This document shows positions 10,387-40,965 of a stretch of DNA of 64,000 bases, in pieces (the first letter of the stretch is position 1; each line of letters opens with the position of its first letter). Source of the stretch: Stigmatella erecta. GTDB taxonomy: Bacteria > Myxococcota > Myxococcia > Myxococcales > Myxococcaceae. The notes under the pieces were generated by a model. The model saw nothing but the letters and a program-made list of their open reading frames with translations. It was not told the DNA's origin and ran no database searches. The position numbers and the translations under genes are program-made. Location: contig NZ_FOIJ01000002.1 in assembly GCF_900111745.1 (NCBI RefSeq), forward strand, positions 186,001 to 250,000, in the 5' to 3' direction.

Positions 10387-10390
10387 CGGC

Positions 10391-11173
10391 TCACCTCACG
10401 GCAATGGCCGGACCGGCCAGATTCAGTTCAACGATGAAGTCATACGAATCGCCCCGGTACTGCGAGCGGACGAATTCCAGAGGCGTGCCGTCCTCGAGCA
10501 TGGTCCGGCGCTCAATATAGAGGCCCGCGGCACCTTCCCCCACGCCGAGCTGGGCGGCCTGATCGGCCGAGAGCTGGATGGCCGACAGCCGCTGCAGGGC
10601 GCGGTAGGGCGTGAAGCCCCGGCGCCGCAGCATCTCGTAGAGCGAGCCCTGCACTTCCGTGGGGTCCGGCAGGAAGCGGGTGGGCAACACCGCCAGCTCC
10701 AGCGCCATGGCGGTGCCGTTGGCCGTCCGCAGGCGTTGCAACCGGCTCACCATGGTGCCCGGGCGAATGCCCAGCGCCAGCGTCTCCTCGGGGGTGGCCA
10801 CCGCCACCGTGCGGCTCAGCCAGAGCGAGCCCGCGGTCAGTCCCCGCGAGCCCATGTCCTCGGAGAAGCCGGTCAGCGTGGACAGGCGCTGCTCCACGTA
10901 GGGCGCGCGGTTGACGAAGGTGCCGGCGCCCTGGCGCTGCTGCAGAAGCCCCTCGTCCAGCAGTTCCTTCAGGGCCTTGCGCACGGTGACGCGGGACACG
11001 CCGAAGCGCTCGGCCAGCTCCCGCTCGCCGGGCAGCGCGTCCCGGTGGCCGAGCTTGCCGCTGACGATCTGGCCTCGCAGGTAGCGTGCGAGCTGAAGGT
11101 AGAGCGGCAAAGGCAGCTCGCTCGACAGCGCACCCCCGTCGAATGAATCGGCTGCGCTGGAATGGCTCGACAT
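10391..11173 (-). CDS. nagR: GntR/HutC-family regulator of GlcNAc genes
   Basis: A 260-residue regulator with an N-terminal winged helix of the GntR type (about 20-95: PLYLQLARYLRGQIVSGKL, LPGERELAERFGVSRVTVRK) and a C-terminal UTRA effector domain (about 105-255; GSLYEMLRRRGFTPYRAL and the IERRTMLEDGTPLEFVRSQY segment). The family includes DasR and YvoA/NagR, which bind GlcN-6-P or GlcNAc-6-P. It is the first gene of the deaminase/nagA operon and divergent from the PTS genes, so it most likely represses both. An inverted repeat lies 18 bp before its start codon and another before the PTS genes (see operator entries). The exact effector is inferred. Confidence 0.92.
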   Translation of the reverse strand: MSSHSSAADSFDGGALSSELPLPLYLQLARYLRGQIVSGKLGHRDALPGERELAERFGVSRVTVRKALKELLDEGLLQQRQGAGTFVNRAPYVEQRLSTLTGFSEDMGSRGLTAGSLWLSRTVAVATPEETLALGIRPGTMVSRLQRLRTANGTAMALELAVLPTRFLPDPTEVQGSLYEMLRRRGFTPYRALQRLSAIQLSADQAAQLGVGEGAAGLYIERRTMLEDGTPLEFVRSQYRGDSYDFIVELNLAGPAIAVR

Positions 11174-11190
11174 GGCTTCCTGGCTCCTTC

Positions 11191-11215
11191 TGGTATTACG
11201 ACCACTACCATACCA
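11191..11215. promoter_or_regulatory. Candidate NagR operator 1 (TGGTAT-N13-ATACCA)
   Basis: An inverted repeat with perfect 6-bp arms TGGTAT (11191-11196) and ATACCA (11210-11215). It lies 18 bp upstream of the nagR start, a suitable place for autorepression. TGGT/ACCA half-sites are typical of GntR/HutC GlcNAc regulators. The same arms recur at 11369-11401 on the other side of the intergenic region. Confidence 0.6.
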
Positions 11216-11294
11216 CTTCGGCGGCTTGACGCAACACGCAATCTGCTCGGCTGCTCCTTAACAACCATGTTAACCGCATGAAATCATTGAGCTT

Positions 11295-11323
11295 TTGACT
11301 TAAACAAGAAAAAGCAGTCTTAT
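11295..11323 (+). promoter_or_regulatory. Sigma-70-type promoter for the PTS operon
   Basis: TTGACT at 11295-11300 (5 of 6 to the -35 consensus), a 17-base spacer, and TCTTAT at 11318-11323 (4 of 6 to the -10). The region is AT-rich compared with its surroundings. It points toward the small ORF and nagF, with operator 2 about 45 bases downstream. Confidence 0.5.
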
Positions 11324-11368
11324 CGCCACTTCAGGATAACAAATTTCACGTTGTAATCTGGATCTGCG

Positions 11369-11401
11369 CTGGTATCTTCCACCAGTCCAATCTAATACCA
11401 G
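11369..11401. promoter_or_regulatory. Candidate NagR operator 2 (CTGGTAT-N19-ATACCAG)
   Basis: Arms CTGGTAT (11369-11375) and ATACCAG (11395-11401) form a perfect 7-bp inverted repeat. The left arm also pairs with a nearer ACCAG (CTGGTATCTTCCACCAG, 11369-11385). It sits between the putative PTS promoter and the first start codon, consistent with a roadblock or repression site for the divergent regulator. Confidence 0.55.
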
Positions 11402-11421
11402 TTAGCAGGGTGAGGAGCCGC

Positions 11422-11673
11422 ATGGCGAAGGAGACGGAAGGGGCCGCCCGCCGGTTCCAAGGGCTCGAGGCCTGGGGCACGGGCGAACTTCTGGAAACCT
11501 GGGGGCGGGCGATGGACGCCACCATCGCGCGGCGCTCCCAGCGCGCCGTGCTGGGGCTCAAGGGCCTGTCCACGGCCCCGGCGGAAGCGGCGCGGGCCCA
11601 GTCCAGAGGTAATCTGCGCACCGCGCTCTCCGCGCTCTCCTCCCAGGATAAAGGTGGCCCATGTCCACGCTAA
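11422..11673 (+). CDS. Small hypothetical protein ahead of the PTS genes
   Basis: An 83-residue frame starting MAKETEGAARRFQGLEAW with the ribosome-binding site GAGGAGCC 5 bases before the ATG. Third codon positions are strongly G/C, as in neighbouring genes. Its end overlaps the start of nagF (11661) by 13 bp, so translation may be coupled. The protein is predicted helical, basic and soluble, with no signal peptide. It may be a genuine small protein of the PTS operon or a leader frame that sets nagF expression. No homologue was recognised. Confidence 0.5.
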   Translation: MAKETEGAARRFQGLEAWGTGELLETWGRAMDATIARRSQRAVLGLKGLSTAPAEAARAQSRGNLRTALSALSSQDKGGPCPR

Positions 11674-14246: not shown

Positions 14247-14275
14247 GGGGACTCCCCCTCCCCGGAGAGAGGCGC

Positions 14276-16015
14276 ATGCAGACCAATAAGTTCGCTGGAA
14301 TTCAGCAGCTCGGGCGGGCCCTGATGCTGCCCATCGCGGTTCTTCCCATCGCCGGCCTCCTGTTGAGGCTCGGCCAGGACGACCTGCTCGGCATCCCCTT
14401 CATGGCCGCCGCGGGCGACGCCATCTTCTCCAACCTCGGCCTGCTGTTCGCCGTGGGTGTGGCGGTGGGCTTCGCGCGCGAGAACCACGGCGCGGCGGGG
14501 CTCGCCGGCGCGGTGGGCTACTTCATCACCGTCAAGGGGACCGACGCCCTCGTGAGCGTGCCGCCCGAGGTGATTGCAGAGCTGACGGGGGCCGCGAAGG
14601 ACCTGGCCATCGCGGGCTACAAGGCCAAGCTCGCCGCGAAGATCAGCATGCCGGCCGGCATCCTGTCGGGCCTCATCGCCGGGCTGATGTACAACCGCTT
14701 CAAGGACATCAAGCTGCCGGAGTACCTGGCGTTCTTCGGTGGCCGCCGGTTCGTCCCCATCATCACCAGCCTCGCCTGCCTGGTGCTCGCGGGCCTGTTC
14801 GGCCTTGGCTGGCCCCTGTTCGAGGCGGGCCTGGATGGCTTCAGCCGCCACGTGTTCGCCGCCGGCAAGCTGGGCCTGTTCGTGTACGGCTTCCTCAACC
14901 GGCTGCTCATCGTCACGGGCCTGCACCACATCCTCAACAACATCGCCTGGTTCATCCTGGGCGACTTCAACGGGGTGACGGGCGACCTGAAGCGCTTCTT
15001 CGCGGGAGACCCCGCGGCGGGCGCCACCATGGCGGGCTTCTTCCCGGTCATGATGTTCGGCCTGCCGGCCGCCTGCCTCGCCATGTACCACGCGGCGCCG
15101 AAGCACAACCGCGCCAAGGTGGGCGGCGTGCTGACGTCCATCGCGCTGACGTCCTTCCTGACGGGCGTCACCGAGCCGGTCGAGTTCGCCTTCATGTTCC
15201 TCGCGCCGCCGCTCTACCTGCTGCACGCGGTGCTCACGGGCCTGTCGCACGTCATCATGGACGCGCTGAACGTGAAGCTCGGCTTCGGGTTCTCGGCGGG
15301 TCTGTTCGACTACGTGCTGAACTACGGCAAGGCGACGAACCCCATCCTCCTGCTGCCCATTGGCGCCGTGTACGCCGTCACCTACTACGCTGTGTTCCGC
15401 GTCTGCATCGCCAAGTTCAACCTGAAGACGCTGGGCCGTGAGGACGAGGAAGCCCTGGCGGTTTCCGCGGTGGGCAGCCCCGTGGCGCCCGGCCTGCCGG
15501 CCCCCGCGCTGAGCCGAGGCTCCTCGTACCTGAAGGCCCTGGGCGGCGCCTCCAACGTCCAGAACGTCGACTCCTGCACGACGCGGCTGCGGCTGACCGT
15601 GGCGGACAACGCCCGCGTCGACGAGGGCGCGCTCAAGACGCTCGGCGCGCGCGGCGTCATCCGCCCGGCGCCCGGGAGCGTCCAGGTCATCATCGGGCCG
15701 CTCGCCGAGCAGGTGGCCAACGAGGTGCAGGAGGCGCTGCGCGGCGGAACCTCCGCCCCCGCCGCGCTCAGCGCCGAGAAGACGCTGGCGCACGCCATGC
15801 TCCGGGCCCTGGGAGGGCGCGCCAACATCCAGGAGATCGGCACCTGCACCACCCGGCTGCGGCTCATCGTCGTCGACAACGCGCTCGTCGATGAGAGTGC
15901 CTTGAAGGAACTCGGAACCCGGGGCGTGGTGAAGCCCTCCCCGGGCTCCGTGCAGGTCATCATCGGTCCCACCGCCGAGCGGGTGGCCGATGAGCTCCGG
16001 TTGCTGATCGCCTAA
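14276..16015 (+). CDS. nagE: PTS GlcNAc-type permease EIIC with two EIIB domains
   Basis: A 579-residue permease. The N-terminal EIIC domain (about 1-400) has roughly ten membrane segments and begins with FAGIQQLGRALMLPIAVLPI; the typical GLHHILNNI and TGVTEPVEFAFMFLAP motifs are present. It is followed by two EIIB domains: the first with the phospho-cysteine in DSCTTRLRL (about 434), the second in GTCTTRLRL (about 524). It would import GlcNAc and release GlcNAc-6-P inside the cell. EIIA is supplied by nagF, unlike E. coli NagE, which carries its own. The ATG at 14276 has GGAGAGAGG just upstream. Specificity for GlcNAc rather than glucose is inferred from the nag genes around it. Confidence 0.94.
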   Translation: MQTNKFAGIQQLGRALMLPIAVLPIAGLLLRLGQDDLLGIPFMAAAGDAIFSNLGLLFAVGVAVGFARENHGAAGLAGAVGYFITVKGTDALVSVPPEVIAELTGAAKDLAIAGYKAKLAAKISMPAGILSGLIAGLMYNRFKDIKLPEYLAFFGGRRFVPIITSLACLVLAGLFGLGWPLFEAGLDGFSRHVFAAGKLGLFVYGFLNRLLIVTGLHHILNNIAWFILGDFNGVTGDLKRFFAGDPAAGATMAGFFPVMMFGLPAACLAMYHAAPKHNRAKVGGVLTSIALTSFLTGVTEPVEFAFMFLAPPLYLLHAVLTGLSHVIMDALNVKLGFGFSAGLFDYVLNYGKATNPILLLPIGAVYAVTYYAVFRVCIAKFNLKTLGREDEEALAVSAVGSPVAPGLPAPALSRGSSYLKALGGASNVQNVDSCTTRLRLTVADNARVDEGALKTLGARGVIRPAPGSVQVIIGPLAEQVANEVQEALRGGTSAPAALSAEKTLAHAMLRALGGRANIQEIGTCTTRLRLIVVDNALVDESALKELGTRGVVKPSPGSVQVIIGPTAERVADELRLLIA

Positions 16016-16120
16016 CCCGGCCTCTGAATCACCTGAATGGACTCACCCCTGGGGGGACGGCGCGAGCCGCTCCCGCCAGGGCCAGGTCCGTGCTGTCTCA
16101 AACATGGGAGGAACGAACGA

Positions 16121-18847
16121 ATGAAGCGGCTCCTGATGTCCCTGCCCCTCGCGGCGATGCTTGCCTCGGGATGTTCTGACTCGGATGACGAGAAGACCCC
16201 CACCCCCCCCACCCCCGAGCCCACCCGCCAGCCCCAGCTCGCCGTGCAGTTCGAGCCCGTGGACCACTCGGTGGGCAGCTGGCAGTTCTTCCGCGCCACC
16301 TTCACCCTGGAGAACACGGGCACCGCGGAGCTGCCCAGCACCGGCTGGAAGCTCTACTTCAGCCTCGTCCGCCACATCCTCGAGGACGGCAAGGGCGACG
16401 CGACGGGCACCCAGGAGCTCGCCAAGCAGGGCGTCCGCATCACCCCCGCGGGCAAGGCCCAGAGCGGTGACTACTACGTGATGGAGCCCGTCGAGGGCTT
16501 CCGGCCCATCGCCCCAGGCGAGAAGCGCGAGATCAGCGTGCTGATCAGCGACTGGGCCATCATGAAGGCGGATGCCCCCTCCGGCTTCCACATCACCCTC
16601 GATGGCCAGGAGCCTAACACGGCGATCGCGGTGACCTCCACGGTCAAGATCGACATCAACAACCCGAAGCACACCACGCGCTTCGAGGACGACGCCCTGC
16701 CGGTGCAGACCCCCACCCTGCGCTACGACGAGAACCCCTCGGCGCAGACCCTGGAGCTCAAGTCCCGGCTCCTGCCCACCCCCCGCAAGGTCGAGGCGGG
16801 CACGGGTGAGCTGGCACTCAGCGGCAATGTCGTCATCAGCCACCCCGCCGAGCTCCGGGGCGAGGCGGCCTACCTCGTGGCCGCCCTGGGAGACGTGCTG
16901 AACGCGTCCATCACCGCCCAGACGTCCACGGGCAACGAGCAGATCGCCCTGAGCATCGAGCCCAACCTCGATGTCACCGGCGACGGCACCCGGGACGCGG
17001 AGGGCTACCAGCTCGAGGTCCGGGACGGCCGGGTGACGATTACCGGCGCGGACGCGGCGGGCGTGTTCTACGGCATCCAGACGCTCCGCCAGCTCATCCC
17101 CGCCCAGGCCTATCAGGCGGCGGTGCAGCGGGCCAACCGCCCCACGGCCATCAACCTCCCCGTGGCGCGCATCGCCGATGCGCCGGGGTTCGCCTTCCGC
17201 GGCATGCACCTGGACGTGGGCCGCCACTTCCAGTCCAAGGAGACCGTCAAGAAGCTGATCGACGTCATCTCCCACTTCAAGATCAACAAGTTCAACCTCC
17301 ACCTGACCGACGACGAGGGGTGGCGGCTGGAGACCCCGGGGCTGCCCGAGCTGACGAGCTACGGCGCCCGCCGGGGCTTTGATCTCGAGGAGCTGGAGAT
17401 GCTCCACACGGCGTTCGGCTCCGGCAATGATCTCCAGGACGGAGACCTCATCCGCCAGAAGCCGGCCTCGCCGGAGAAGGCCAACGCCGGGGTCCGGCCC
17501 AGCTACCAGGGCTTCGAGACGGCCACGCTCAACTTCGTGGGCAAGGGCAATGGGTACTACACCACCACGGACTTCGAGGAGATCCTCCGGTACGCCGCCG
17601 AGCGGCACATCGAGGTCATCCCCGAAATCGACATGCCGGGCCACGCCCGGGCGGCCGTCAAGGCCATGGAGTACCGCTACCGCAAGCTCAAGGACCTGGA
17701 TCCCGCGCAGGCGGCCGCCTACCGGCTGATCGACCCGGACGACACCTCCAAGCACAAGAGCGTCCAGGGCTACACGGACAACTTCGTCAACCCGTGCCTG
17801 GAGACCACCTACGCCTTCCTGACCAAGGTCGCCACGGAGATCAAGGCGCGCTACGACGCGGCCGGCATCCCGCTGAAGACGATCCACGCCGGTGGCGACG
17901 AGCTGCCCGCGCTCAACCCCCACGTCTGGTGGCAGGGCTCGCCGCTGTGCAAGGCGAACGCCGCGACCAAGGACATGACCGACCACCAGCTCTTCAACCA
18001 GTTCTTCTCACGCTGGGGCCAGATCATCACCGCCACGGGCGCGAAGGTGACGGGCTGGGACGACATCATCCACAACGGGCTCACCCTGCCCGGCTTCATG
18101 CCGATGCCGTGGAGCAACGTGTGGGGCTGGGGCCGCGAGGACGACGCGTACAAGTACGCCAACCAGGGCTACAAGGTCATCCTGTCCCACTCGACGAACC
18201 TCTACATGGACCTGGCCTACAACAAGGATCCCGACGAGCCCGGCTACTACTGGGCCAACTTCGTCGACGAGAAGAAGACCTTCGAGTACCGGCCGTTCGA
18301 CATCTACGCCAACGCCACCCACAACCGCATGGGCGTGCCCTTCAAGCCCTCCGACTGGGACGGCAAGGAGCGCCTGACGGCCGAGGGCAAGAAGAACATC
18401 CTGGGCATGCAGGGGCTGCTCTGGGCCGAGAACCTGAAGACGCCCGAGGTGATGGAGTACCTGGCCTTCCCGAAGGTGCTCGGCGTCGCCGAGCGCGCCT
18501 GGAACCCGGAGCTGCCGGACGTGAGCCAGATGCCCGCCCTGTGGGGCCAGTTCACCAACAGCCTCGGCCAGCACGTGCTGCCGCGCCTGGGGGCCTACCG
18601 CCCGGTGGACCTGCGTGACGAGCTGCCCGACGCGGTGGGGGTGAACTACCGCATCCCGCTGCCGGGCGCGCGCCTCATGGACGGCAAGCTGCACGCCAAC
18701 GTGCGCTACCCGGGCCTGACCCTCGAGTACTCGGTGGATGGGGGCAAGACCTGGACGGCGTACACGGAGCCCGTGACGGCCTCCGCCGGTGTGCAGCTGC
18801 GCACGCGGGCCGCCGACGGCCGCGCCAGCCGCGTCACCACCCTGTAG
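16121..18847 (+). CDS. GH20 beta-N-acetylhexosaminidase (chitobiase) lipoprotein
   Basis: A 908-residue lipoprotein: signal MKRLLMSLPLAAMLASGC, acylated Cys 18, acidic and Pro-rich linker, CHB_HEX N-terminal carbohydrate-binding domain (about 37-200), GH20 N-terminal domain (about 220-345), GH20 TIM barrel (about 355-800) and a CHB_HEX C-terminal Ig-like domain (about 835-908). RGMHLDVGRHF and LHLTDDEGW are GH20 barrel motifs, and the catalytic Asp-Glu pair is in HAGGDELPALNP (about 593-594). The enzyme removes terminal GlcNAc from chitobiose and chito-oligomers, feeding the GlcNAc PTS encoded upstream. Length matches bacterial chitobiases. Anchoring at the outer surface or periplasm follows from the lipobox. 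Confidence 0.96.
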   Translation: MKRLLMSLPLAAMLASGCSDSDDEKTPTPPTPEPTRQPQLAVQFEPVDHSVGSWQFFRATFTLENTGTAELPSTGWKLYFSLVRHILEDGKGDATGTQELAKQGVRITPAGKAQSGDYYVMEPVEGFRPIAPGEKREISVLISDWAIMKADAPSGFHITLDGQEPNTAIAVTSTVKIDINNPKHTTRFEDDALPVQTPTLRYDENPSAQTLELKSRLLPTPRKVEAGTGELALSGNVVISHPAELRGEAAYLVAALGDVLNASITAQTSTGNEQIALSIEPNLDVTGDGTRDAEGYQLEVRDGRVTITGADAAGVFYGIQTLRQLIPAQAYQAAVQRANRPTAINLPVARIADAPGFAFRGMHLDVGRHFQSKETVKKLIDVISHFKINKFNLHLTDDEGWRLETPGLPELTSYGARRGFDLEELEMLHTAFGSGNDLQDGDLIRQKPASPEKANAGVRPSYQGFETATLNFVGKGNGYYTTTDFEEILRYAAERHIEVIPEIDMPGHARAAVKAMEYRYRKLKDLDPAQAAAYRLIDPDDTSKHKSVQGYTDNFVNPCLETTYAFLTKVATEIKARYDAAGIPLKTIHAGGDELPALNPHVWWQGSPLCKANAATKDMTDHQLFNQFFSRWGQIITATGAKVTGWDDIIHNGLTLPGFMPMPWSNVWGWGREDDAYKYANQGYKVILSHSTNLYMDLAYNKDPDEPGYYWANFVDEKKTFEYRPFDIYANATHNRMGVPFKPSDWDGKERLTAEGKKNILGMQGLLWAENLKTPEVMEYLAFPKVLGVAERAWNPELPDVSQMPALWGQFTNSLGQHVLPRLGAYRPVDLRDELPDAVGVNYRIPLPGARLMDGKLHANVRYPGLTLEYSVDGGKTWTAYTEPVTASAGVQLRTRAADGRASRVTTL

Positions 18848-18864
18848 TCAGCCTCTCCCCCCCT

Positions 18865-18886
18865 GCCCCGCGGACCCCCGCGGGGC
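18865..18886 (+). terminator. Hairpin after the hexosaminidase gene
   Basis: A perfect 9-bp stem (GCCCCGCGG / CCGCGGGGC) with a 4-base loop, 18 bases after the stop. No T-tract follows. Confidence 0.55.
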
Positions 18887-18947
18887 GGGAGGGTGTGGGT
18901 AGCACCCGACTGGCGGGGGCAGCCGCACGCCCCCGCCCTTCCCTCAC

Positions 18948-19553
18948 ATGGTCCTGATGAGAGCCCAACCCTCGTATCATCGTCCGGCGGTGGTCACGGC
19001 GGATGCCCCTCGGATGCGTGCTGTCGTGGCCAGGCACCGGGCCGCGACCGAATCCCTGCTCGCGAAGCTCCTCCCGCGGGTGCGCAACAAGGTCCGCTAC
19101 TCGCTTCACTGTGACGCGGAAGTGGATGACATCACCCAGGAGGCCCTGATGGCCATCGTGCGCGGGCTGCCCTCCTACCGCGGCGACGGGGCCTTCGAAT
19201 CCTGGGCGGACCGGGTGGCGGGCCGGGTGGCCTTCGCCGCCTCCAGCCGGGTCCGCGCCGAGCGCAGCCAGCTCAACCTGGAGGACGACAGCGCCGGGCT
19301 GAACTCCCTGCCGGAGGAGGCGCCCTCCTCGGAGGACTGCCTGCTGCGCCGCCAGTTCGCCAAGCTGCTGGAGCAGCTCTCCGACGAGCAGCGCCGGGTG
19401 CTGGTGCTTCACCACGTGCTGGACATGAGCGTTCCGGAGATGGCCGAGCAGCTGGGCATTCCCTTCGAGACGGTCCGCAGCCGGCTCCGCCTGGGAAGGG
19501 CCCACCTCCGGGCGCTCTTCCTCGCCCAGTATGGCGAGGAAGCCGAGCCCTGA
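18948..19553 (+). CDS. ECF-type RNA polymerase sigma factor
   Basis: A 201-residue sigma factor. Region 2 (about 30-95) includes AEVDDITQEALMAIVRGL and the tryptophan-containing FESWADRVAGR helix; region 4 (about 138-190) has LSDEQRRVLVLHHVLDMS and the helix-turn-helix PEMAEQLGIPFETVRSRL. No anti-sigma gene is adjacent: the downstream gene is a convergent chitinase, 28 bp away. Placement between the hexosaminidase and the chitinases suggests a role in chitin-induced expression, but this is inference. The start at 18948 lacks a clear ribosome-binding site; ATGs at 18957 and 18996 are alternatives. Confidence 0.9.
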   Translation: MVLMRAQPSYHRPAVVTADAPRMRAVVARHRAATESLLAKLLPRVRNKVRYSLHCDAEVDDITQEALMAIVRGLPSYRGDGAFESWADRVAGRVAFAASSRVRAERSQLNLEDDSAGLNSLPEEAPSSEDCLLRRQFAKLLEQLSDEQRRVLVLHHVLDMSVPEMAEQLGIPFETVRSRLRLGRAHLRALFLAQYGEEAEP

Positions 19554-19581
19554 GGGCCCCGGCCTCCCCGCCCTCCCCCCG

Positions 19582-21429
19582 CTAGTACTTCGGCAGGGTG
19601 GGGATGCTCTGGTTGCAGTTGCTGGTGATGCCGAGGATCTGGCAGACCTTCTGGCCGGCGGAGTTCACCGAGGCGGCCCCGGCGGGCGGGGCCATGTGGA
19701 CGCGCTCCTTCCAGATCTGCCACACCATCATGCCGTCGGTGGCCTTGCCCTTGTTCTTCATGTACGTGGCGAGCGTCTCGACGTTGTAATACTTCGTCGC
19801 CATGTTGTTCTGGCCGGTGAGCATCTCGGCGTCGTACACGGTGCCGGGGTCCGCGTTGAGCCGCAGCGTCGCGCCGCCCGCGCCCTCGGGAGCAATCTCC
19901 AGCCCCATCGCGATCGGGCCGCTGTAGATGGCCCGGTACGACTCATAGCCCTCGCGGGGATCGTAGTACTCGCCCCCGTCGTAGGACATGAGGTTGATGT
20001 GGTGCAGCTTGCTGCCGTGGTTCTTCACCACGCTGTACATGGTGCCGCCGAAGGGCGAGCCCCACTGCACCTTGCCCTCCTCGAACGGGGTGCCCTTCAC
20101 GTAGTAGGCGCCCGTGGACCAGCCCGCGATGGAGATGCCCAGCTTCAGCCCGCGCGAGCGGATGGTGTTGTCCAGGCTGGTGATGATGCCGGCAATCTCC
20201 CCGTCCTTGCTGCAGCTGAACTGGGCGGCCTCCAGCTTGTTGCAGCTGCTGCCGCTCGACTCCCAGTCAATGTCGATGCCGTCAGCCCCGAGGTCCTGCG
20301 CCAGGTCCACGACGCGCGCGGCGTTGAAGCTCTCCCACTGGGTGCCCTGGCTGTAGCTCCACCCGCCCACGGACAGCCACACCTGGGTGCCGCGCGTGCG
20401 CAGGGCGCGGATGTTGTTGATGAGCGTCTGCGACTGGGCCGGGGTGAACTTCTTCTGCCCGGTGTTCGTCGTGGCGCCCTCGAAGAACTCGAGCCCGGCC
20501 ACCTCCTGGTCGAACGCGAACGAGCCCTTCTGGTAGGCCGTGTTCGGCCGCACGAAGGACAGGTTCAGGTGCGTGTAGTAGCTGGGGATGTTCGCGGGGG
20601 TGAGGTCCTCGATGCTGGTGTTCCAGCTGCTCGCGTAGCCGATGTACATCCGGCCGCCCGGCGGGGTGGGAGGATCCTGCGGGAGGGCGACGGTGACGCT
20701 CGCCGCGCTGGAGGTGGCGCTGTTGCCCGCCCCGTCGAAGGCCTTCGCCGTGTAGCTGTAGGTGCCGTTCTGCGCGCTGGAGCTGAAGCCGTCCGACACG
20801 CTGTAGGGGCTGGTGGTGTCCGTGCTCAGCAGGGTGCCGTTCTTGTAGAACTCGACCCGGGCCACGCCCACGTTGTCGCTCGCCGGGGCGGTGAGGACGA
20901 CGCTGCCCGCGCTGGTGAGCCGCGTGGGGCTGGCCGACAGGCTGACCGTCGGGGCGGTCTTGTCGTTCGGGTCCGTCGGCGGCTGGCCGCCATCGCACGA
21001 GTAGCCGTTGATGGTGCAGGCGCTCAGCCCGCTGTAGGTCCCCGCGCCCTCGAAGGTGACGGTGACGCTGCCCAGCGCGGGCACCACGTTGCCGCCCCAG
21101 GAGTTGGGCAGGAAGGTCCACGAGCCATCGCTGCCCTGGCTGGCGGAGCCGCCCGCGCCCCAGGGAGCGCCCCGGACCGTGACGGTGCCGTTGAACTTGA
21201 ACTTGAGCGCCCAGTCGGTGATGGGGCTGGAGGTGGTGTTCTGGATGGTGAACACCCCGTTGAAGCCTCCGTCCCACTTGGAGCTGGTGGCGAAGGTGGC
21301 CTTCAGCCCGGCGGCGGACGCCGCGAGCTGGAGGCTCTGCAAGGCGGCGGGCTCCTGCGGCTCCTCACCGCACGAAGCCGCCAGGGCGCCCACGAGGGCG
21401 GTGACGATGAATTTTCTCGGCTGACGCAT
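19582..21429 (-). CDS. GH18 chitinase lipoprotein with cellulose/chitin-binding domain
   Basis: A 615-residue predicted lipoprotein (signal MRQPRKFIVTALVGALAASC, lipobox AASC). After it come a CBM2-like beta-sandwich (about 30-145; NGVFTIQNTTSSPITDWALK), a bacterial Ig-like domain (about 160-250; APTVSLSASP, NGTYSYTAKAFDGAGN) and a GH18 TIM barrel from about 260. The GH18 signature is intact: strand-3 motif QVWLSVGGWSYSQ and DGIDIDWE with the catalytic Glu near residue 390. It would hydrolyse chitin by substrate-assisted catalysis at the cell surface. It is transcribed last in a run of three CBM-bearing genes, 33 bp after the next chitinase gene. Confidence 0.95.
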   Translation of the reverse strand: MRQPRKFIVTALVGALAASCGEEPQEPAALQSLQLAASAAGLKATFATSSKWDGGFNGVFTIQNTTSSPITDWALKFKFNGTVTVRGAPWGAGGSASQGSDGSWTFLPNSWGGNVVPALGSVTVTFEGAGTYSGLSACTINGYSCDGGQPPTDPNDKTAPTVSLSASPTRLTSAGSVVLTAPASDNVGVARVEFYKNGTLLSTDTTSPYSVSDGFSSSAQNGTYSYTAKAFDGAGNSATSSAASVTVALPQDPPTPPGGRMYIGYASSWNTSIEDLTPANIPSYYTHLNLSFVRPNTAYQKGSFAFDQEVAGLEFFEGATTNTGQKKFTPAQSQTLINNIRALRTRGTQVWLSVGGWSYSQGTQWESFNAARVVDLAQDLGADGIDIDWESSGSSCNKLEAAQFSCSKDGEIAGIITSLDNTIRSRGLKLGISIAGWSTGAYYVKGTPFEEGKVQWGSPFGGTMYSVVKNHGSKLHHINLMSYDGGEYYDPREGYESYRAIYSGPIAMGLEIAPEGAGGATLRLNADPGTVYDAEMLTGQNNMATKYYNVETLATYMKNKGKATDGMMVWQIWKERVHMAPPAGAASVNSAGQKVCQILGITSNCNQSIPTLPKY

Positions 21430-21462
21430 GAATGCCTCTGGGAAGTGCGCGGAAGGAGCGGG

Positions 21463-23289
21463 CTACTGGTACCGGTCCAGGTAGGCGCGGTGGCTGTTGG
21501 AGAACTCGGAGTTGAAGTACTTGTCCCAGTTGATCGACCAGGTCATCAGCCCCTTGAAGCCGGGGTAGCCCGACGCCTGGCGCAGCACGTAGCTGCCCCC
21601 GAAGGACTGGCCCTTGATGAGGTAGTCGAGCGCCTTCTGGACGTTGGCGGGCGTCGTGTAGCCCCCGCCCGCGGCCTGGGGAGAGGCGGGCAGGCCGATG
21701 ATGACCTGGTCCGGACGCAGCGCCGGGAAGACGTTGCTGGCGTTGCGGCCCACGGGGAAGCCCTGGAGCAGCATCTCCGCCATGGCCACGTGGAAGTCCG
21801 CGGTGCCCTGCGCGTACGCCTTGCCGTCCAGGCCCTCCACGGAGCCCGTGTTGTAGTGCTGCACGTGCAGGTATGTCAGCCGGTCGCGCAGCGCGTAGAT
21901 GACCGGGAGGTAGGCGCCCCACGGCCCGCCGTAGGCGGCGAACCCGCCCTGCACGTAGGCCGTCTCGGGGGCCATGGTGAGGATGAAGCCGGAGCCGTAC
22001 GCGCTGAGGATCTGCCGGGTGGCGTCGATCAGGTTGACGATCTTCGGCGTCGTCGGGCTGCGGAAGTTGGTGTCGCCGCCGTTGAGGGACAGGGAGCTGC
22101 CCTCCAGGTCCAGGTCCATGCCATCGAACCCGTAGGTGTTGATGATCGACTTCATCGTGTTGATGAAGTTCTGCTTGGCGGTGCCGTCGGCCAGGTCCAC
22201 GGTGCCGTTGGCGCCACCGATGGAGATGAGCACCTTCTTGCCCTGCGCCTTGAGGGCGGCGATGTCCGCCTTGAAGTCGGCGGCGGTCGCGTTGTAGGGC
22301 GTGAACGCCATGTTGCCGGTGGTGGGGCCGCCCACGGGCTCGGCGAAGGCGACCTGGATGACGTCGTACTTGGGCGAGATGTCCTTCAGCCGGATGTTCG
22401 TCGAGCCGTTGTCGAAGTTGTGCCAGTAGCCCACGATGATCTTGCTGCCCACGGGCGGGGGCGCCGACGTCTTCGCCGAGACGCTGGCGCTGGCCGCGGA
22501 CCGGTTACCGGCCGCATCGCGGGCCTTCACCGTGAAGGTGTACGTCATGTTGGCCGACAGGCCGGAGACCGTGGCGCTCGTGCCGGTGGCGGTGGCCGCC
22601 GCGGTGGTGGCGCTGCCCACGAACACCTCGTAGCCCGTCACCCCCACGTTGTCCGAGGAGGCGTTCCAGGCCAGCGAGACGCTGCTGCTGCTCACGCCCG
22701 TGGAGCGCAGGCTCGCCGGGGCGGTGGGCGCCTGGTTGTCATTGCTCACCGGGGACGTCGTCACGCTGAGGGCGGAGCTGGCCGCGGACCAGTTGCCGGC
22801 CGCATCGCGGGCCTTCACCGTGAAGGTGTACGTCATGTTGGCCGACAGCCCGGAGACCGTGACGCTCGTGCCGGTGGTGGTCACCGACGTGGCCGCCGCG
22901 CCGGTCACGAACACCTGGTAGCCCGTCACCCCCACGTTGTCCGAGGAGGCATTCCAGGTGAGCGAGACGCTGCTGGACGTCTTGCCCGGAGCGCTCAGCC
23001 CCGCCGGCGCCGAAGGGGCCTGGACATCCCCGGAGCCCGCCGTCTCCAGCCACAGGGCGGGCACGTTGGGCGGCTCCCAGCCCACCAGGGACGTATGCGC
23101 CTGGCGGCAGTCATAGGCCTTGCCGGAATAGGTGACGTTATCGCCCTGGGCATAGGCGACCGACGGGGCCCAGGCCCCCCGGTTGGCGGCCAGCGCCAGC
23201 GTGGGCACCAGGCTCCACACCAGGGCCACGAGGGCCAACCACGACACCATGCTCCGCCCGGACCGCTGGGCCACTTGCAACGCACTCAT
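21463..23289 (-). CDS. Secreted GH18 chitinase with CBM5/12 and two FN3 domains
   Basis: A 608-residue exported protein. The N-terminal signal peptide is about 35 residues, with a hydrophobic core after SGRSM and an AxA site at LALAAN. A CBM5/12 chitin-binding domain (about 36-82; GAWAPSVAYAQGDNVTY, WEPP) is followed by two fibronectin type III domains (about 92-180 and 188-275) that are very similar to each other, both with SDNVGVTGY and SANMTYTFTVKARDAAGN. The GH18 barrel starts near 283 (KIIVGYWHNF); SIGG and FDGMDLDLEG carry the signature, with the catalytic Glu near 396. The architecture resembles actinobacterial and Bacillus chitinase D-type enzymes. The product is released chito-oligomers. 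Confidence 0.95.
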   Translation of the reverse strand: MSALQVAQRSGRSMVSWLALVALVWSLVPTLALAANRGAWAPSVAYAQGDNVTYSGKAYDCRQAHTSLVGWEPPNVPALWLETAGSGDVQAPSAPAGLSAPGKTSSSVSLTWNASSDNVGVTGYQVFVTGAAATSVTTTGTSVTVSGLSANMTYTFTVKARDAAGNWSAASSALSVTTSPVSNDNQAPTAPASLRSTGVSSSSVSLAWNASSDNVGVTGYEVFVGSATTAAATATGTSATVSGLSANMTYTFTVKARDAAGNRSAASASVSAKTSAPPPVGSKIIVGYWHNFDNGSTNIRLKDISPKYDVIQVAFAEPVGGPTTGNMAFTPYNATAADFKADIAALKAQGKKVLISIGGANGTVDLADGTAKQNFINTMKSIINTYGFDGMDLDLEGSSLSLNGGDTNFRSPTTPKIVNLIDATRQILSAYGSGFILTMAPETAYVQGGFAAYGGPWGAYLPVIYALRDRLTYLHVQHYNTGSVEGLDGKAYAQGTADFHVAMAEMLLQGFPVGRNASNVFPALRPDQVIIGLPASPQAAGGGYTTPANVQKALDYLIKGQSFGGSYVLRQASGYPGFKGLMTWSINWDKYFNSEFSNSHRAYLDRYQ

Positions 23290-23341: not shown

Positions 23342-25327
23342 TCAGGGCAGCTTCACCGGGCTGGCGAAGTACTCCTGGACGCGGGTGATCCAGTAGTAGC
23401 CATCGGTGGGCAGCGCCTCAGGGTAAGCACCGGGCTGCGGAATGCCACGGGTGCTCTGCCCCACGCCGGCGCCCATGAGGATGGCCACCACCCCGGCGTT
23501 GGCCGCCTCCTGCATGTGGGAGCCCCAGGTGACGGTGTTGCCGCTCACCGAGACCTTGGGGTCCTTCCACTCGTTCTTCGAGAAGTAGGCCAGCCGGTTG
23601 CCCGAGAGCGTGAGCGTGTCGCCGAAGAAGTACGGCGAGGCCGACTCCTCGTAGCGCTGCACGGTGTTGTCCAGGAGCGGGAACGTGCCCGAGGCGTTGT
23701 AGACCGTGGGGCTGCGGCGCGTGGTGCCGTTGATGTGCCCGGCGGGAATCTGCCAGAGCACCACGGGCAGCGAGAGCGTGTCCTTGAGCGAGCGGACGAA
23801 CAGCAGGTAGTTGTTCCAGAGGTCCGCGTTCCAGAACCAGATGGAGCTGGCCGGATCATTCGGGTTGGCCCCGCCCGCGCCCGCGCCATCCAGGCCGTAC
23901 TTGTCGATGGAGATGAACTCGGCGCCGCCGTACTTCACGCCCGCCTTGAGCGCGAAGCCCGCGTTGGCCCGGGCGTTCTCCTGGATGCGCGTCTTGCCCG
24001 CCTCGAAGCCGAACACCTCCGTCGAGTGCATGATGCCCGTGCCCGGCGCGCCGGGGGCGGCCCACAGGTTGAGCTGCCAGCCCAGGAACGCCTTCGGGGT
24101 GTGCTTGCGCAGGGCGTGGTTGATGCTCTGCACGAGGCCCGTCACCGTGTTCGGGAAGTCCGGGTCCACGCCGCGCTGGAGCACGCCCGAGTCATAGGCG
24201 GCATGGGTGGCGGCGGGCATCCTCGACGGGTCGCCGCCGTACTGCCCGGCGTACTGCTGCTGGAGGTAGCCCAGGGTGTCGGGCTCGATGACGTAGCCGA
24301 TGCGGCCCGTGCCCATGATGGACGTGGCGGTCTGCCCCACGTCGCGCAGCCCCTGGAAGTACTGGGAGAGGAAGCCGGCGTTCTGGAGGTTGGCCCACAG
24401 GGACGCGGGGCTGTCGGAGTTCCCACCAATGCCGTACACCACGAAGATGGGCGTCATGCCCTGCTCCTTGCTCTTCGTGGCCAGGCGGACGGCGCGGCTG
24501 TGCCACTCGCTGAACTGCACGCCGCCGTTGAGGTACAGGTAGCCGTAGTCGAGGCGCTTGCCGGCCGGGAACTGCGGGTTCACCTTGTTGAAGAAGCCGT
24601 CGGTGCCCGTGAAGGGCTCGTACACGGTGCCCACCGCGACGTGGCTGGGGTGCCAGGAGCCACCGGGGTTGGTGTCCTGCGCCGTCGTCACGGACAGGGC
24701 GGCACTGGCCACGCCCACGTTGCCCACGCCATCGCGGGCCTTGATCGTGTAGCTGTACTGCGTCGAGGGCGAGAGGATGCCGTCCGTGTAGGCCAGCGCC
24801 GAGGTGGTCCCCACCTGCGTCCCATTGCGGAACACGAGGTAGGCGGAGATGCCCACGTTGTCGCTCGCCGCGTTCCAGGCCAGGGACACCTGGGTGCTCG
24901 TCACCCCGGTGGAGCGCAGGCCCAGCACCTGCGAGGGCGGGCTCGTGTCGGTGCCGCCATCCGTCCCGCCGTCGGTGCCGCCATCCGTCCCGCCATCCGT
25001 GCCACCGCCGGAGCAGACGCCGATGAGCTTGTACCAGCCGCTGGCGGTCCCCCAGACGGGCTCCGCGTTCCAGATGGCCACCAGCGCCTCGTAGAGGCTG
25101 CCCTGGTGCACCATGCGGTCCCCCGGGTTGTAGATGGTGGTGGCGTTCCACGTGGGCACGCCCGTGCAGCTCACCAGCTCCGCCGGGGCCGTGGCCGTCA
25201 GCTCCTCCTCGAACAGGGCTTCCTCGGGGGACAGACCTCCCTGGCAAGCCATCGCCGAGAGGACCCACAGGGACAGCAGGCCCAGCCGCGCGACAGCTTT
25301 CCGATTACAAAAGAACATTCCAGCCAT
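23342..25327 (-). CDS. CBM5/12-FN3 lipoprotein with unassigned catalytic domain
   Basis: A 661-residue predicted lipoprotein: signal (about 12-27), lipobox SAMAC, CBM5/12 (about 57-103; TWNATTIYNPGDRMVHQG, VWGTASGWYKLIG), a (GGTD)n linker (about 108-127), FN3 (about 132-215; ASDNVGISAY) and a large C-terminal domain (about 220-661). That domain has alternating strand-helix blocks such as FVVYGIGGNSDS, GYVIEPDTLGYL, FLGWQLNLWAAPG, EFISIDKYGLDG and PVVLWQIPAGHIN, compatible with a TIM-barrel glycoside hydrolase. IEPDTLG recalls the EPD motif of GH6, but no family could be assigned. The chitin-binding module and the two chitinase genes just downstream suggest chitin or another cell-wall glucan as target. 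Confidence 0.8.
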   Translation of the reverse strand: MAGMFFCNRKAVARLGLLSLWVLSAMACQGGLSPEEALFEEELTATAPAELVSCTGVPTWNATTIYNPGDRMVHQGSLYEALVAIWNAEPVWGTASGWYKLIGVCSGGGTDGGTDGGTDGGTDGGTDTSPPSQVLGLRSTGVTSTQVSLAWNAASDNVGISAYLVFRNGTQVGTTSALAYTDGILSPSTQYSYTIKARDGVGNVGVASAALSVTTAQDTNPGGSWHPSHVAVGTVYEPFTGTDGFFNKVNPQFPAGKRLDYGYLYLNGGVQFSEWHSRAVRLATKSKEQGMTPIFVVYGIGGNSDSPASLWANLQNAGFLSQYFQGLRDVGQTATSIMGTGRIGYVIEPDTLGYLQQQYAGQYGGDPSRMPAATHAAYDSGVLQRGVDPDFPNTVTGLVQSINHALRKHTPKAFLGWQLNLWAAPGAPGTGIMHSTEVFGFEAGKTRIQENARANAGFALKAGVKYGGAEFISIDKYGLDGAGAGGANPNDPASSIWFWNADLWNNYLLFVRSLKDTLSLPVVLWQIPAGHINGTTRRSPTVYNASGTFPLLDNTVQRYEESASPYFFGDTLTLSGNRLAYFSKNEWKDPKVSVSGNTVTWGSHMQEAANAGVVAILMGAGVGQSTRGIPQPGAYPEALPTDGYYWITRVQEYFASPVKLP

Positions 25328-25450: not shown

Positions 25451-27850
25451 TCAGAGCCGGACCTCCAACCGCGTCCACCCGGCCTCCACTTCCACGAGCA
25501 GAACGTCCTCCACGAAACGGTGCTCGCGCGCCCCCAGCACCTCCTTCGGCTCGGTGAGGGCATACAGGCACAGCGTCTCGGTTTCCCGGGCGAAGGGCAG
25601 CGCCCCTTCCAGGCTCCGCTCGAGCACGAACCGGCCCGCAGTTCCCTCCCCCGACAGCCGCGTCAGCCGGGAGGCGCCATAGCCATCGCCGGCGTCCTCA
25701 TAGAGGCAGGCCTCCACGCGCGGGGCCGCATGGATGTGCCAGGTGAGGTGGGCCCAGTTGGCCGAGGTGGTGTGCAGCGCGGGCTCCGTCAGGGCCAGGG
25801 CGCCACCCGCCCGCAGCCACATGGGCACCGTGCTCAGCGGCGCCTCGGCGAGCACATGCTGCCGGCCCTCCCGCACCTCGCCCGCGGAGAGTCCGAGATC
25901 GAAGAAGGGCAGCCACCGGCCCTCGGGCAGGTACACGTGCCGGCGCGTGCGCCCCTGGCGAACCACGGGGGCCACCAGCAGCTCCCGCCCCAGCAGGAAG
26001 GCGTCATCCATGCGCAGCGCCTCCTGGTCCTCGGGCGCGTACATGACGAGGGGCCGCATCGCGGGCAGTCCCTCCAGGGAGGCCTCGTGCATCAGCGTGT
26101 AGAGCGTGGGCAGGAGCCGGTAGCGCCGCTCCAGCCACTCCCGGGCGATGGACAGGTAGGGCTCCCCGAAGCGCCAGGGCTCCTGGTACGGGGTGCCCTT
26201 CGCGGAGTGATTGCGCAGCAGGGGGTAGAAGGTGCCCAGCTGCGTCCACCGCACGAGCATCTCCCCGGTGGCACGGCCCAGGAAGCCCGGCACATCCGCC
26301 CCGGTGAAGGCGACGCCCGACAGGCCCAGGCCCAGCAGCATGGCGATGGACAGCTCCAGGTGCGCCCAGTAGCTGGAGTTGTCGCCCGTCCAGACCGCCG
26401 CGTAGCGCTGGATGCCGGCCGCGCCCGCGCGCGTCAGCAGGAAGGGGCGCCGCTCGGGCGCGAGCTCGCGCAGGCCCTCGTAGGCCGCGCGGGCCATGCC
26501 CAGCGCATACACGTTGTGGACCTCCAGGTGGCGCCGGTCCCCGTGCCGGGCGTCATGGGGCAACGTGGGCCCCTCCACCTTGCCCAGGTCCGCCGCGGGC
26601 GCCGAGTTGATGGAGAACGTCTCGTTGCCGTTGATGAGCCGGAAGCAGGCGGGCTCGTTCATGTCGTTCCAGAAGCCCGCGATGCCCGTCTCCACGAAGG
26701 CCCGGTGCAGCTGGCCCCACCACTGGCGCACCGGCTCCCGGGTGAAGTCCGGGAAGGCGGCGGGCTTGGGCCACACCTCGCCGAGCAGCACGCTGCCCCG
26801 GTCGTTGCGCACCAGGTAGTCGCCCGCGAGCGCCTCGTCATAGACGCGGTAGCCCGGCTCGGCCTTCACCGCCGGATCAATGATGGTGACGATCTTCACC
26901 CCCTGCGTGGCGGCCTCGCGCGCCAGGCCCGCCGGGTCCGGGTAGCGCGCGCGGTCCCACGTCCAGACCTTGTAACCCTCCATGTAGTCGATATCGAGGT
27001 ACACGCAGTCCAGCGGCAGCTGGTGGGCGCGGTAGTCGCGGATGACGGAGCGGATCTCCCGGGCGTTCTCGTAGCCCCAGCGCGACTGCTGGACGCCCAG
27101 GCTCCACAAGGGGGGCAGCGGGGGCCGGCCCGTGAGCGCGGTGTAGCGCCGCAGCACGTCCGCGGGCAGCGGCCCGGCGAACAGGTAGGCATCCAGCTCG
27201 GGGCCCGCGGACTCCCAGCGCACGCGCGTGGGGTCCTCCGCCGCCACGTCCACCTCCAGCCGCCAGGACTCATCGAGGAAGAAGCCCCAGGCGGCGCCAT
27301 CGCGCAGTCCCATGCTGAAGGGGATGGACTGGTAGAGCGGATCCGTGTCCGGGTGGTGGGGCACGACATCGGTGTTCCAGAAGATGAAGTGCATGCCCCG
27401 CTTGTCGAGCGTCCCCACCTTCTCCCCGAAGCCGAGCCACGCCTCCTCGGGCGGCGCATGCAGGCTGAGCCGGGAGCGGTACCGGTTGACGGGGTAGTCG
27501 GGCATCGTCTCGCCCGAGAAGCCCTCGCACCGGGCCAGCTCCCGGCCCCCGGGCTCCCGCAGCACCCACGTGCCCTGCTCCGGCCGGACCTCCAGCGACA
27601 GCCCTTCGGCCTGCACCACCGTGAGGCCGGCCGCCGTGTCCTTCCGGACGGAGAGCGGAAGCTCCGCATGCGCCACGACGGACCAGGAGTGCTTGGGGGC
27701 CAGCTCCCGGGCGGCCAGTGAGGAGGGGCCCGGAGAGGGGATGTGGCGCACCCGGAGGACACCCGGCAGGGGGCTGCGGATCTCCAGCGCGGAGCTGGCG
27801 CCCCAGAAGGTGACGCGGGTGGGCTCAATGGACAGGTCGTCGAAGCGCAT
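25451..27850 (-). CDS. GH31 alpha-glucosidase-family enzyme
   Basis: A 799-residue cytoplasmic glycoside hydrolase. Near residues 170-230 is the N-terminal GH31 galactose-mutarotase-like domain (GFGEKVGTLDKRG, FWNTDVVPHHPDTDPLYQSI). The barrel follows with PPLWSLGVQQSRWGYE, the DCVYLDIDYMEGYKVWTWD motif, the nucleophile region GFWNDMNEP (about 393-401) and the acid/base region WTGDNSSYWAHL. A C-terminal beta-sandwich completes it. No signal peptide. GH31 members cut alpha-glucosides or alpha-xylosides; the substrate here is uncertain. It begins 45 bp after the stop of the upstream TPP-enzyme gene on the same strand, so co-transcription is possible. It is not obviously part of chitin breakdown. 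Confidence 0.93.
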   Translation of the reverse strand: MRFDDLSIEPTRVTFWGASSALEIRSPLPGVLRVRHIPSPGPSSLAARELAPKHSWSVVAHAELPLSVRKDTAAGLTVVQAEGLSLEVRPEQGTWVLREPGGRELARCEGFSGETMPDYPVNRYRSRLSLHAPPEEAWLGFGEKVGTLDKRGMHFIFWNTDVVPHHPDTDPLYQSIPFSMGLRDGAAWGFFLDESWRLEVDVAAEDPTRVRWESAGPELDAYLFAGPLPADVLRRYTALTGRPPLPPLWSLGVQQSRWGYENAREIRSVIRDYRAHQLPLDCVYLDIDYMEGYKVWTWDRARYPDPAGLAREAATQGVKIVTIIDPAVKAEPGYRVYDEALAGDYLVRNDRGSVLLGEVWPKPAAFPDFTREPVRQWWGQLHRAFVETGIAGFWNDMNEPACFRLINGNETFSINSAPAADLGKVEGPTLPHDARHGDRRHLEVHNVYALGMARAAYEGLRELAPERRPFLLTRAGAAGIQRYAAVWTGDNSSYWAHLELSIAMLLGLGLSGVAFTGADVPGFLGRATGEMLVRWTQLGTFYPLLRNHSAKGTPYQEPWRFGEPYLSIAREWLERRYRLLPTLYTLMHEASLEGLPAMRPLVMYAPEDQEALRMDDAFLLGRELLVAPVVRQGRTRRHVYLPEGRWLPFFDLGLSAGEVREGRQHVLAEAPLSTVPMWLRAGGALALTEPALHTTSANWAHLTWHIHAAPRVEACLYEDAGDGYGASRLTRLSGEGTAGRFVLERSLEGALPFARETETLCLYALTEPKEVLGAREHRFVEDVLLVEVEAGWTRLEVRL

Positions 27851-30886: not shown

Positions 30887-32152
30887 GTGAAGAACAAGTC
30901 CTTGGGTTGGTGGATGGTCCTGAGCCTCTCGGCGTCCGCATGTGGCATGGAGGACCTGTCGGATCAGACGTCCCGGGACGGCGCCTCGCTTCAGCGCCCC
31001 TCCATCACCGCGGAGAGGACGAGCCCCCCGGCGGGCCACGCCACGTTCGGCGTCGAGGAGGAGGACTACGCTCCTCCGGAGAGCAGCATCGAGTCCTTCG
31101 GGATCCCCGACGAGAACGGCAACTACGCCGGGGCGGTCGCCATGAAGATCAGCGCGTCGGACGCCGGCACGGGCGTGAAGGAAATCTATTACTACTTCAC
31201 CGGCGCCACGACGGGGAGCGCCACGGTGAGTGGTGACACGGCCTATCTGCCCCTCATCGAGAACCCGGGCCTGACCACCATCATCTATTACTCGCGTGAC
31301 AACGCCGGGAACGTCGAGGAAGCCAAGAGCATCGACATCAACATCGTCCTCGAGCAGCCGGGCGTGAGCTGCCTGCCGGTGAAGCTGGGCGAGTACAACC
31401 TGTTCGTCCTGGGCAACTACATGAACGGCCACGACGTGCAGGGCAAGGTGGCCGCGGGCGGCAACGTCACCCTGACCAGCTTCGCCGTGGGCGCGGGGCT
31501 GCCGGCCACCAACACCCACCATGTGCTCGTGGTGGGCGGCAACCTCAACATCAGCAACGGCGCCGTCTACGGTGACACCTACTACGGTGGCACCCTCACC
31601 AAGGCCTCGAACGCCACGATCCGCCGCGGCACCCTGACCCAGGGCACGCCCTTCAACTTCACCGCGCTGAGCGCGGACCTGCAGACGCTGTCCTCCCAGC
31701 TCGCCACCCAGCTGGAGCCCACCGCCACCCCGCGCATCGAGCCCTGGGGCGGCCTGTACCTCAAGGGCAGCAACCCCACGCTCAACGTCTTCGAGCTGAA
31801 CGCCAGCATCTTCGCCTCCACCCGCTACATGGAGCTCGAGGCCCCGGCCGGCTCCCGCATCGTCGTGAACATCCGCGGCCCCTCGGCCTCGTTCTCCAAC
31901 TTCAGCCAGCACAACTTCCGGGGCGGCATCGACCAGACGGGCGTCCTCTACAACTTCGTCGACACCACGAAGATCAACGCCTCGTCCTTCGGCTTCTGGG
32001 GCACGGTGCTCGCGCCGCTGGCCGACATCACCTTCAACAACGGCAGCTGGGATGGCGGCATCTACGCCAACTCGCTGACGGGCACCGCCGAGGGCCACAT
32101 CAACCCCCTGAAGGACTTCGAGTTCTGCGAAGAGGGGCAGAACAACTACTGA
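30887..32152 (+). CDS. Choice-of-anchor A family lipoprotein
   Basis: A 421-residue predicted lipoprotein (signal MKNKSLGWWMVLSLSASAC, lipobox SASAC). Residues about 62-155 form an Ig-like domain (APPESSIESFGI, IYYYFTGATTG, TIIYYSRDNAGNVEEAKSI). Residues about 165-415 match the choice-of-anchor A domain: YNLFVLGNYMNGHDVQGKVAAGGNVTL near its start and a closing ANSLTGTAEGHINP. In the known family this domain is carried by surface proteins with varied C-terminal anchors and often near collagen-like or ice-binding repeats; its molecular role is unknown. Here anchoring is by the N-terminal lipid. A strong terminator follows at 32178. Confidence 0.88.
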   Translation: MKNKSLGWWMVLSLSASACGMEDLSDQTSRDGASLQRPSITAERTSPPAGHATFGVEEEDYAPPESSIESFGIPDENGNYAGAVAMKISASDAGTGVKEIYYYFTGATTGSATVSGDTAYLPLIENPGLTTIIYYSRDNAGNVEEAKSIDINIVLEQPGVSCLPVKLGEYNLFVLGNYMNGHDVQGKVAAGGNVTLTSFAVGAGLPATNTHHVLVVGGNLNISNGAVYGDTYYGGTLTKASNATIRRGTLTQGTPFNFTALSADLQTLSSQLATQLEPTATPRIEPWGGLYLKGSNPTLNVFELNASIFASTRYMELEAPAGSRIVVNIRGPSASFSNFSQHNFRGGIDQTGVLYNFVDTTKINASSFGFWGTVLAPLADITFNNGSWDGGIYANSLTGTAEGHINPLKDFEFCEEGQNNY

Positions 32153-40902: not shown

Positions 40903-40965
40903 GCTCCTGTCCCGTGGGCACCTGCCAGCATGAGGACGCGCGGGAAAGTTCCTGGGGCTCCGCGT

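Follow-up and report, generated by a model that had tools for sequence, protein, structure and literature searches.

The window analysed here, 64,000 nucleotides of the Stigmatella erecta genome, contains a gene on the reverse strand (gene X, 23342–25327; ORF limits exact, from the ORF and its translation) that encodes a secreted, multidomain protein of 661 amino acids. It lies among the following genes:

8165–9775, reverse strand: nagA, GlcNAc-6-P deacetylase (TIGR00221, 305.8 bits against a cut-off of 225.65, from residue 152)
9328–10386, reverse strand: NagB-II-like glucosamine-6-phosphate deaminase with an SIS domain (NF046059, 317 bits against a cut-off of 430; PF01380)
10391–11173, reverse strand: GntR-family regulator (GntR-type models, all under their cut-offs)
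11661–14246, forward strand: fused PTS EIIA-HPr-EI (Pfam; TIGR01417 over its cut-off)
14231–16015, forward strand: GlcNAc-type PTS transporter IIBC (TIGR01998, 691.9 bits against a cut-off of 553.2)
16037–18847, forward strand: GH20 beta-N-acetylhexosaminidase (PF00728, E 2.6e-86)
18948–19553, forward strand: ECF-type sigma factor (TIGR02937, 77.1 bits against a cut-off of 42.9)
19582–21429, reverse strand: GH18 chitinase with CBM2 and Big_7 (PF00704, E 4.5e-13)
21463–23289, reverse strand: GH18 chitinase with CBM5/12 and two FN3 modules (PF00704, E 4.1e-13)
25451–27850, reverse strand: GH31 enzyme, the upstream neighbour of X (PF01055, E 3e-117)

From nagA through the two GH18 genes, the entire pathway from chitin to GlcNAc-6-phosphate is contained in a single stretch (8165–23289); the true start of nagA is probably near residue 150 of its ORF. 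The two downstream neighbours of X that an earlier note had read as chitinases were both identified as GH18 by PF00704, and the association with chitin drawn there was right and stronger than first noted, as the GlcNAc uptake cluster, the kept gene order and the GH18 fusions described below all indicate. GH18 directly adjoins X in nine of 11 related regions and GH20 is present in seven, while two regions (L134 and L138) have neither adjoining X. Outside the close relatives, GH18 was found in only 3 of 93 pooled neighbouring ORFs, so that context alone is weak there. Elsewhere in the window are a gene for a putative ice-binding-like adhesive domain protein (30887–32152; PF20597, E 1.6e-50), which is also near X in three related regions, and an ORF of 597 residues without a Pfam match (40930–42723).

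Divergence between X and 11 relatives whose domains are 80–98% identical falls mostly at third codon positions (50, 38 and 125 changes at positions 1, 2 and 3, respectively, for L006), a bias indicating that X is a real protein-coding gene. Its product has the following modules, all on the reverse strand:

25244–25327: signal peptide, residues 1–28, ending at Cys28 (inspection of the translation and relatives)
25076–25153: CBM5/12-like chitin-binding module, residues 59–84 (PF02839, E 0.0015)
24947–25009: Gly/Thr/Asp-rich repeat linker, approximately residues 107–127 (inspection)
24701–24934: FN3, residues 132–209 (PF00041, E 5.6e-5)
23345–24664: unnamed catalytic-type domain, residues 222–661, an eight-stranded barrel (AlphaFold2; alignments A4 and A5)

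Cys28 is preceded by S-A-M-A, by eye a weak lipobox, and a comparable cysteine, also judged by eye, is present in eight of 12 close sequences and absent from four; X is plausibly a lipoprotein. The two accessory modules score just under their Pfam cut-offs (19.0 against 26.2 bits for CBM5/12 and 23.7 against 25 bits for FN3). Despite these scores, their assignment from the sequence has held: the CBM5/12 is secure because six of 30 family proteins match it (best E, 6.1e-18), and the FN3 because a PDB sequence search matched the FN3 of chitinase A1 (1k85) at E 3.9e-11.

The C-terminal 440 residues, present in a single copy in the 9.2-Mb genome, had been described as lacking any family signature, and the searches agree: there was no Pfam match even at an E value of 10, no NCBIfam match (the sole NCBIfam match in X covers residues 121–222, the linker and FN3) and nothing in the PDB by single-sequence search. 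No description of the domain family was found in the open-access full-text literature, and the available portion of a paper on the Corallococcus secretome makes no mention of the X protein (PMC10875029).

Domain 222–661 is nonetheless a real, coherent and widespread family, unnamed in the Pfam, NCBIfam and PDB libraries searched. Matches at an E value of up to 0.001 were found in 19 of 195 genomes of the phylum, 12 at 80–100% identity (own genome included) and seven as weaker partial matches only (26–38%). When 84,980 species genomes were scanned, 273 pattern matches came back, of which 126 were confirmed and 80 kept, and these counts are a lower bound because the patterns demand EPD or WQxPxG. 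Subfamily I (L022–L049) is full length, with 34–80% identity over the scan's best segment, and occurs in Actinomycetota, Planctomycetota, Verrucomicrobiota, Lentisphaerota, Bacteroidota, Pseudomonadota and others. Superfamily II (L050–L101; 22–29% identity) includes members from Chloroflexi, Streptomyces, Fibrobacteres and Myxococcota, and its profile matches that of subfamily I over 337 columns (E 9.5e-53). Subfamily III, from the phylum and plasmid searches, consists of L013, L127, L128 and L130, all with NPD replacing EPD, plus the weaker, frame-split L129; against the A5 profile, E values are 1e-24 to 1e-34 for the intact members and 7.4e-13 for L129.

Several members have unusual settings. 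L127–L130 come from plasmid-collection records of Serratia, Vibrio, Cupriavidus and Salmonella, and the member annotated “chitinase” (L127) sits on a mobilizable Serratia plasmid. One Salmonella record of a phage collection was matched, and a DNA search of E. coli for the Salmonella relative found nothing. None of 24 viral pattern matches was confirmed, and a BFVD fold search gave generic barrels and unrelated proteins only. Two genes of the actinomycete Umezawaea (L023 and L024) are ~71% identical to domain 222–661, far closer than other nonmyxobacterial relatives, which suggests that the gene has been transferred between actinomycetes and the myxobacteria. Among the latter, the small genome G144 (2.7 Mb) carries a tandem pair and a third copy elsewhere (L014, L020 and L021), and in one family member (L020:1069-3480) the domain is joined to a GDSL esterase domain. 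Seven Streptomyces members (L086, L092, L093, L096, L097, L100 and L101) have, by eye, N-terminal ricin-like repeats of the QxW type.

The modules that accompany the domain were surveyed in 30 proteins (the window, L022–L049 and L013). CBM2 was found in 16, GH18 and CBM5/12 in six each and ChitinaseA_N and dockerin in three each, and GH18 was the sole catalytic family among the 21 families matched. The GH18 signature is C-terminal to the X domain in L030, L031, L033 and L047 and N-terminal to it in L040 (the sixth Pfam match was unlocated), and fusion in either order suggests that it has occurred repeatedly. A fused GH19, suspected from a motif in the C-terminal part of L013, was discarded after PDB and Pfam searches found nothing.

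AlphaFold2 predicted the X domain with high confidence (pLDDT 94.0, pTM 0.94) as a single eight-stranded barrel, in keeping with the barrel-like strands noticed earlier in the translation, and the model of a superfamily II member is also confident (pLDDT 95.2, pTM 0.93). In the X model, strands occupy domain positions 10–14, 40–46, 71–77, 122–126, 192–198, 250–253, 301–306 and 392–397 (the protein residue number is the domain number plus 221). Residues Y44, Y77, E127, D129, W304 and Q305, in domain numbering, are invariant across 80 rows, and an acidic residue stands at domain position 254 in 78 rows and at positions 340 and 421 in all 80. The conserved sites of most interest, in protein numbering and all on the reverse strand, are as follows:

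24434–24436: Tyr298 (domain Y77), end of strand 3; Tyr in 80/80 rows, aligned with GH6 Tyr73/Tyr169 (6fao)
24413–24415: Asp305 (domain D84); Glu in 52/80 and Asp in 15/80 rows
24269–24289: IEPDTLG, residues 347–353, end of strand 4; E127 and D129 in 80/80 rows
24278–24280: Asp350 (domain D129), proposed proton donor; in 80/80 rows, kept by subfamily III as NPD
23885–23905: DKYGLDG, residues 475–481, after strand 6; also present in subfamily III
23738–23755: WQIPAG, residues 525–530, end of strand 7, the family signature; W304 and Q305 in 80/80 rows

Outside the family, profile searches reach GH6 cellulases only. The best match against all PDB sequences was a GH6 enzyme for each of three profiles (5jx5, E 1.1e-4, for A4; 6fao, E 2.6e-4, for A5; 5jx5, E 6.3e-4, for A7), and in all three alignments EPD falls on EPD and the preceding Tyr strand is also paired. 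hhalign against a 16-sequence GH6 alignment gave E values of 6.4e-6 (A4) and 2.1e-6 (A7); the GH18 controls gave 0.31 and 0.56 and the GH20 control 0.1, these control alignments being less diverse than that of GH6. Among 8828 ORFs (the window and loci including GH18, GH20 and GH31), the A4 profile found family members and GH6 only and matched 18 of 18 endoglucanase-type GH6 loci (3.4e-6 to 0.004). Against kinship, the same profile matched none of seven cellobiohydrolase-type GH6 loci, the A5 profile (subfamily I alone) matched no GH6 ORF among 25 loci, and hhalign of A5 with GH6 left the EPD motifs unaligned. The GH6 model PF01341 has no match in X and reaches 3 of 80 family members at an E value of up to 0.1 (best, 0.0045).

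Structural comparison was divided. In the Foldseek search that the earlier note had proposed, GH6 chains ranked first and made up nine of the 12 best PDB rows for the X model (the other three were b12 scaffolds), but TM-scores to GH6 were low (0.3–0.5). For the superfamily II model, Foldseek rank 1 went to GH6, with GH53 and GH26 interspersed; by Z, GH5 barrels came top. VIA-align of the X model placed GH35, GH5, GH26 and GH53 barrels top by Z among the matches listed (Z ≤17.5), with GH6 absent from the best 50 rows listed. These clan GH-A families (GH5, GH26, GH35 and GH53) share a (beta/alpha)8 barrel with X, which has eight strands in its model, and the best whole-fold rows reached a Z of up to 17.5 with an rmsd of 3.9 over 275 aligned residues, but identity is only 5–12%. 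In clan GH-A enzymes, strands 4 and 7 finish in catalytic Glu residues, the first as Asn-Glu; X lacks this pattern, its strand 4 finishing in EPD and its strand 7 in WQIPxG (Q305 in 80/80 rows). GH18 chitinases share the neighbourhood of X and its CBM5/12 and FN3 modules; unlike them, the family has DxxDxDxE in 0/80 rows, the X domain has no PF00704 match and the hhalign probability is 0.2.

With GH6 (Cel6A/Cel6B; PF01341), the domain has in common the strand 3 Tyr and the strand 4 Asp of EPD. It differs in the RDC motif (0/80 family rows versus 16/16 GH6 rows) and the G-[ED]-x-D-G C-terminal active-site loop (0/80 versus 16/16), both of which GH6 has, and in WQ.P.G, present in 28/28 subfamily I rows and 0/16 GH6 rows; the surroundings also differ, with chitin genes around X and cellulose as the context for GH6. 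The absence of RDC and of the C-terminal loop places X outside GH6, and the reach of the family profiles to GH6 points to a remote relationship: judged by sequence, the domain family is probably distant kin of GH6 but not a member. The idea of an undescribed glycoside hydrolase family thus stands insofar as the domain lies outside all models searched (Pfam, NCBIfam and PDB), but it is modified by the existence of a remote relative.

The kinship allows active-site residues to be proposed. For 6fao, PMC5968413 assigns the catalytic acid to Asp117, from the analogy with TfCel6A, and proposes Asp79 as a base; counted along the A5 alignment (the chain index being one higher by our own count), the first is the aspartate of EPD, with which Asp350 aligns, and the second that of RDC. 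For TrCel6A, PMC6091422 gives D221 as the experimentally determined acid, treats D175 as a debated base and assigns to Y169 a role in shaping the −1 sugar. Asp305 lies near GH6 Asp79/Asp175, with an offset of one residue; this position is acidic in 67/80 rows, and the acid is not clearly retained in subfamily III. Two other residues, D475 (the D254 position, acidic in 78/80 rows) and D480 (D259, Asp in 74/80), are more widely conserved than the acid at 305 and are candidates for the second catalytic acid or base.

We infer that X is probably an exported, chitin-anchored putative glycoside hydrolase of a GH6-related family unnamed in the libraries searched, its catalysis and substrate both being predicted. 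CBM5/12 and FN3 would keep X on chitin while the C-terminal (beta/alpha)8 barrel would cut beta-1,4 bonds. D350 of EPD would be the proton donor, Y298 would shape the −1 site as in GH6, and the second carboxylate could be D305, D475 or D480, activating water directly or via a chain of water molecules. Position 305 is attractive because PMC6091422 asks about the Glu missing from GH6, and Glu occurs nearby in 52 of the 80 rows. The reaction would probably be a single displacement; inversion is likely by analogy with GH6. X would act alongside the two GH18 chitinases, after which GH20 would free GlcNAc for the PTS, NagA and NagB, whose genes lie close by.

Kinship with GH6 could alternatively mean that X is itself a GH6-like beta-glucanase or cellulase, serving within a chitin cluster to open mixed fungal walls of chitin and glucan. 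GH6 is its nearest sequence relative, and CBM2, which also binds cellulose, and dockerin occur in 16 and 3 of the 30 family proteins, respectively, but GH18 is the only catalytic family fused, GlcNAc uptake genes lie beside X and an ordinary GH6 is encoded separately in the genome (L125 on contig C4; PF01341, E 9.1e-54), and we consider this reading unlikely. Slightly less probable still is that X acts on another amino-sugar polymer related to chitin (chitosan, peptidoglycan or partly deacetylated chitin) or is a retaining enzyme with a substrate-assisted mechanism. The chitin locus would suit such substrates, and the strand 4 E-x-D pair with the D254/D259 region could provide an acid and a stabilizer, but in subfamily III that E is replaced by N, the GH18-type DxxDxDxE is found in none of the 80 rows and kinship with GH6 suggests inversion. 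That X is a noncatalytic chitin surface protein, a binding scaffold or an enzyme that has lost its activity, is highly improbable in spite of its binding-type modules, given that the acids at strand ends never vary among 80 sequences spanning many phyla and that GH18 fusions occur in both orders.

The EndoI chitodextrinase, which we take to be EC 3.2.1.202, was considered as an assayed member of the X family and rejected. That EC number is listed as GH18 in PMC11052142, and the “uncharacterized domain” of Andreprevotia, likewise rejected, is described as of another kind in PMC8802321. In V. campbellii, which is closely related to V. harveyi, there is a family member (L128) of 1039 residues with PKD and CBM5/12 modules. 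According to PMC10350509, V. harveyi Chi5174 has 1207 residues with Ig-like, ChtBD3 and CBM modules and no known chitinolytic domain, its crude enzyme is active on colloidal chitin, MUF-(GlcNAc)3 and (GlcNAc)4, and a novel mechanism is suspected, although the authors' tree groups it with GH18. By description, the basis of the comparison, L128 is its obvious counterpart, but the lengths differ (1207 versus 1039), and Chi5174 may be an assayed member of the X family.

More tentatively, and with slightly more doubt than confidence, we propose that the family is a new glycoside hydrolase family in a superfamily with GH6, as the first chitin-cleaving branch of that lineage. Such enzymes would be inverting and use the EPD acid, with the disputed RDC base of GH6 replaced by Glu or Asp one residue on or by the aspartates of DKYxxD.

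To our knowledge, known bacterial chitinases almost all belong to GH18 or GH19. If the proposal is true, a third widespread chitinase group would alter the reading of chitin degradation from genomes, and the family may explain the orphan chitinase Chi5174. PMC6091422 asks why GH6 never evolved Glu as its catalytic base, and the X family, with Glu at a nearby position in most rows, would be a natural test of that question.
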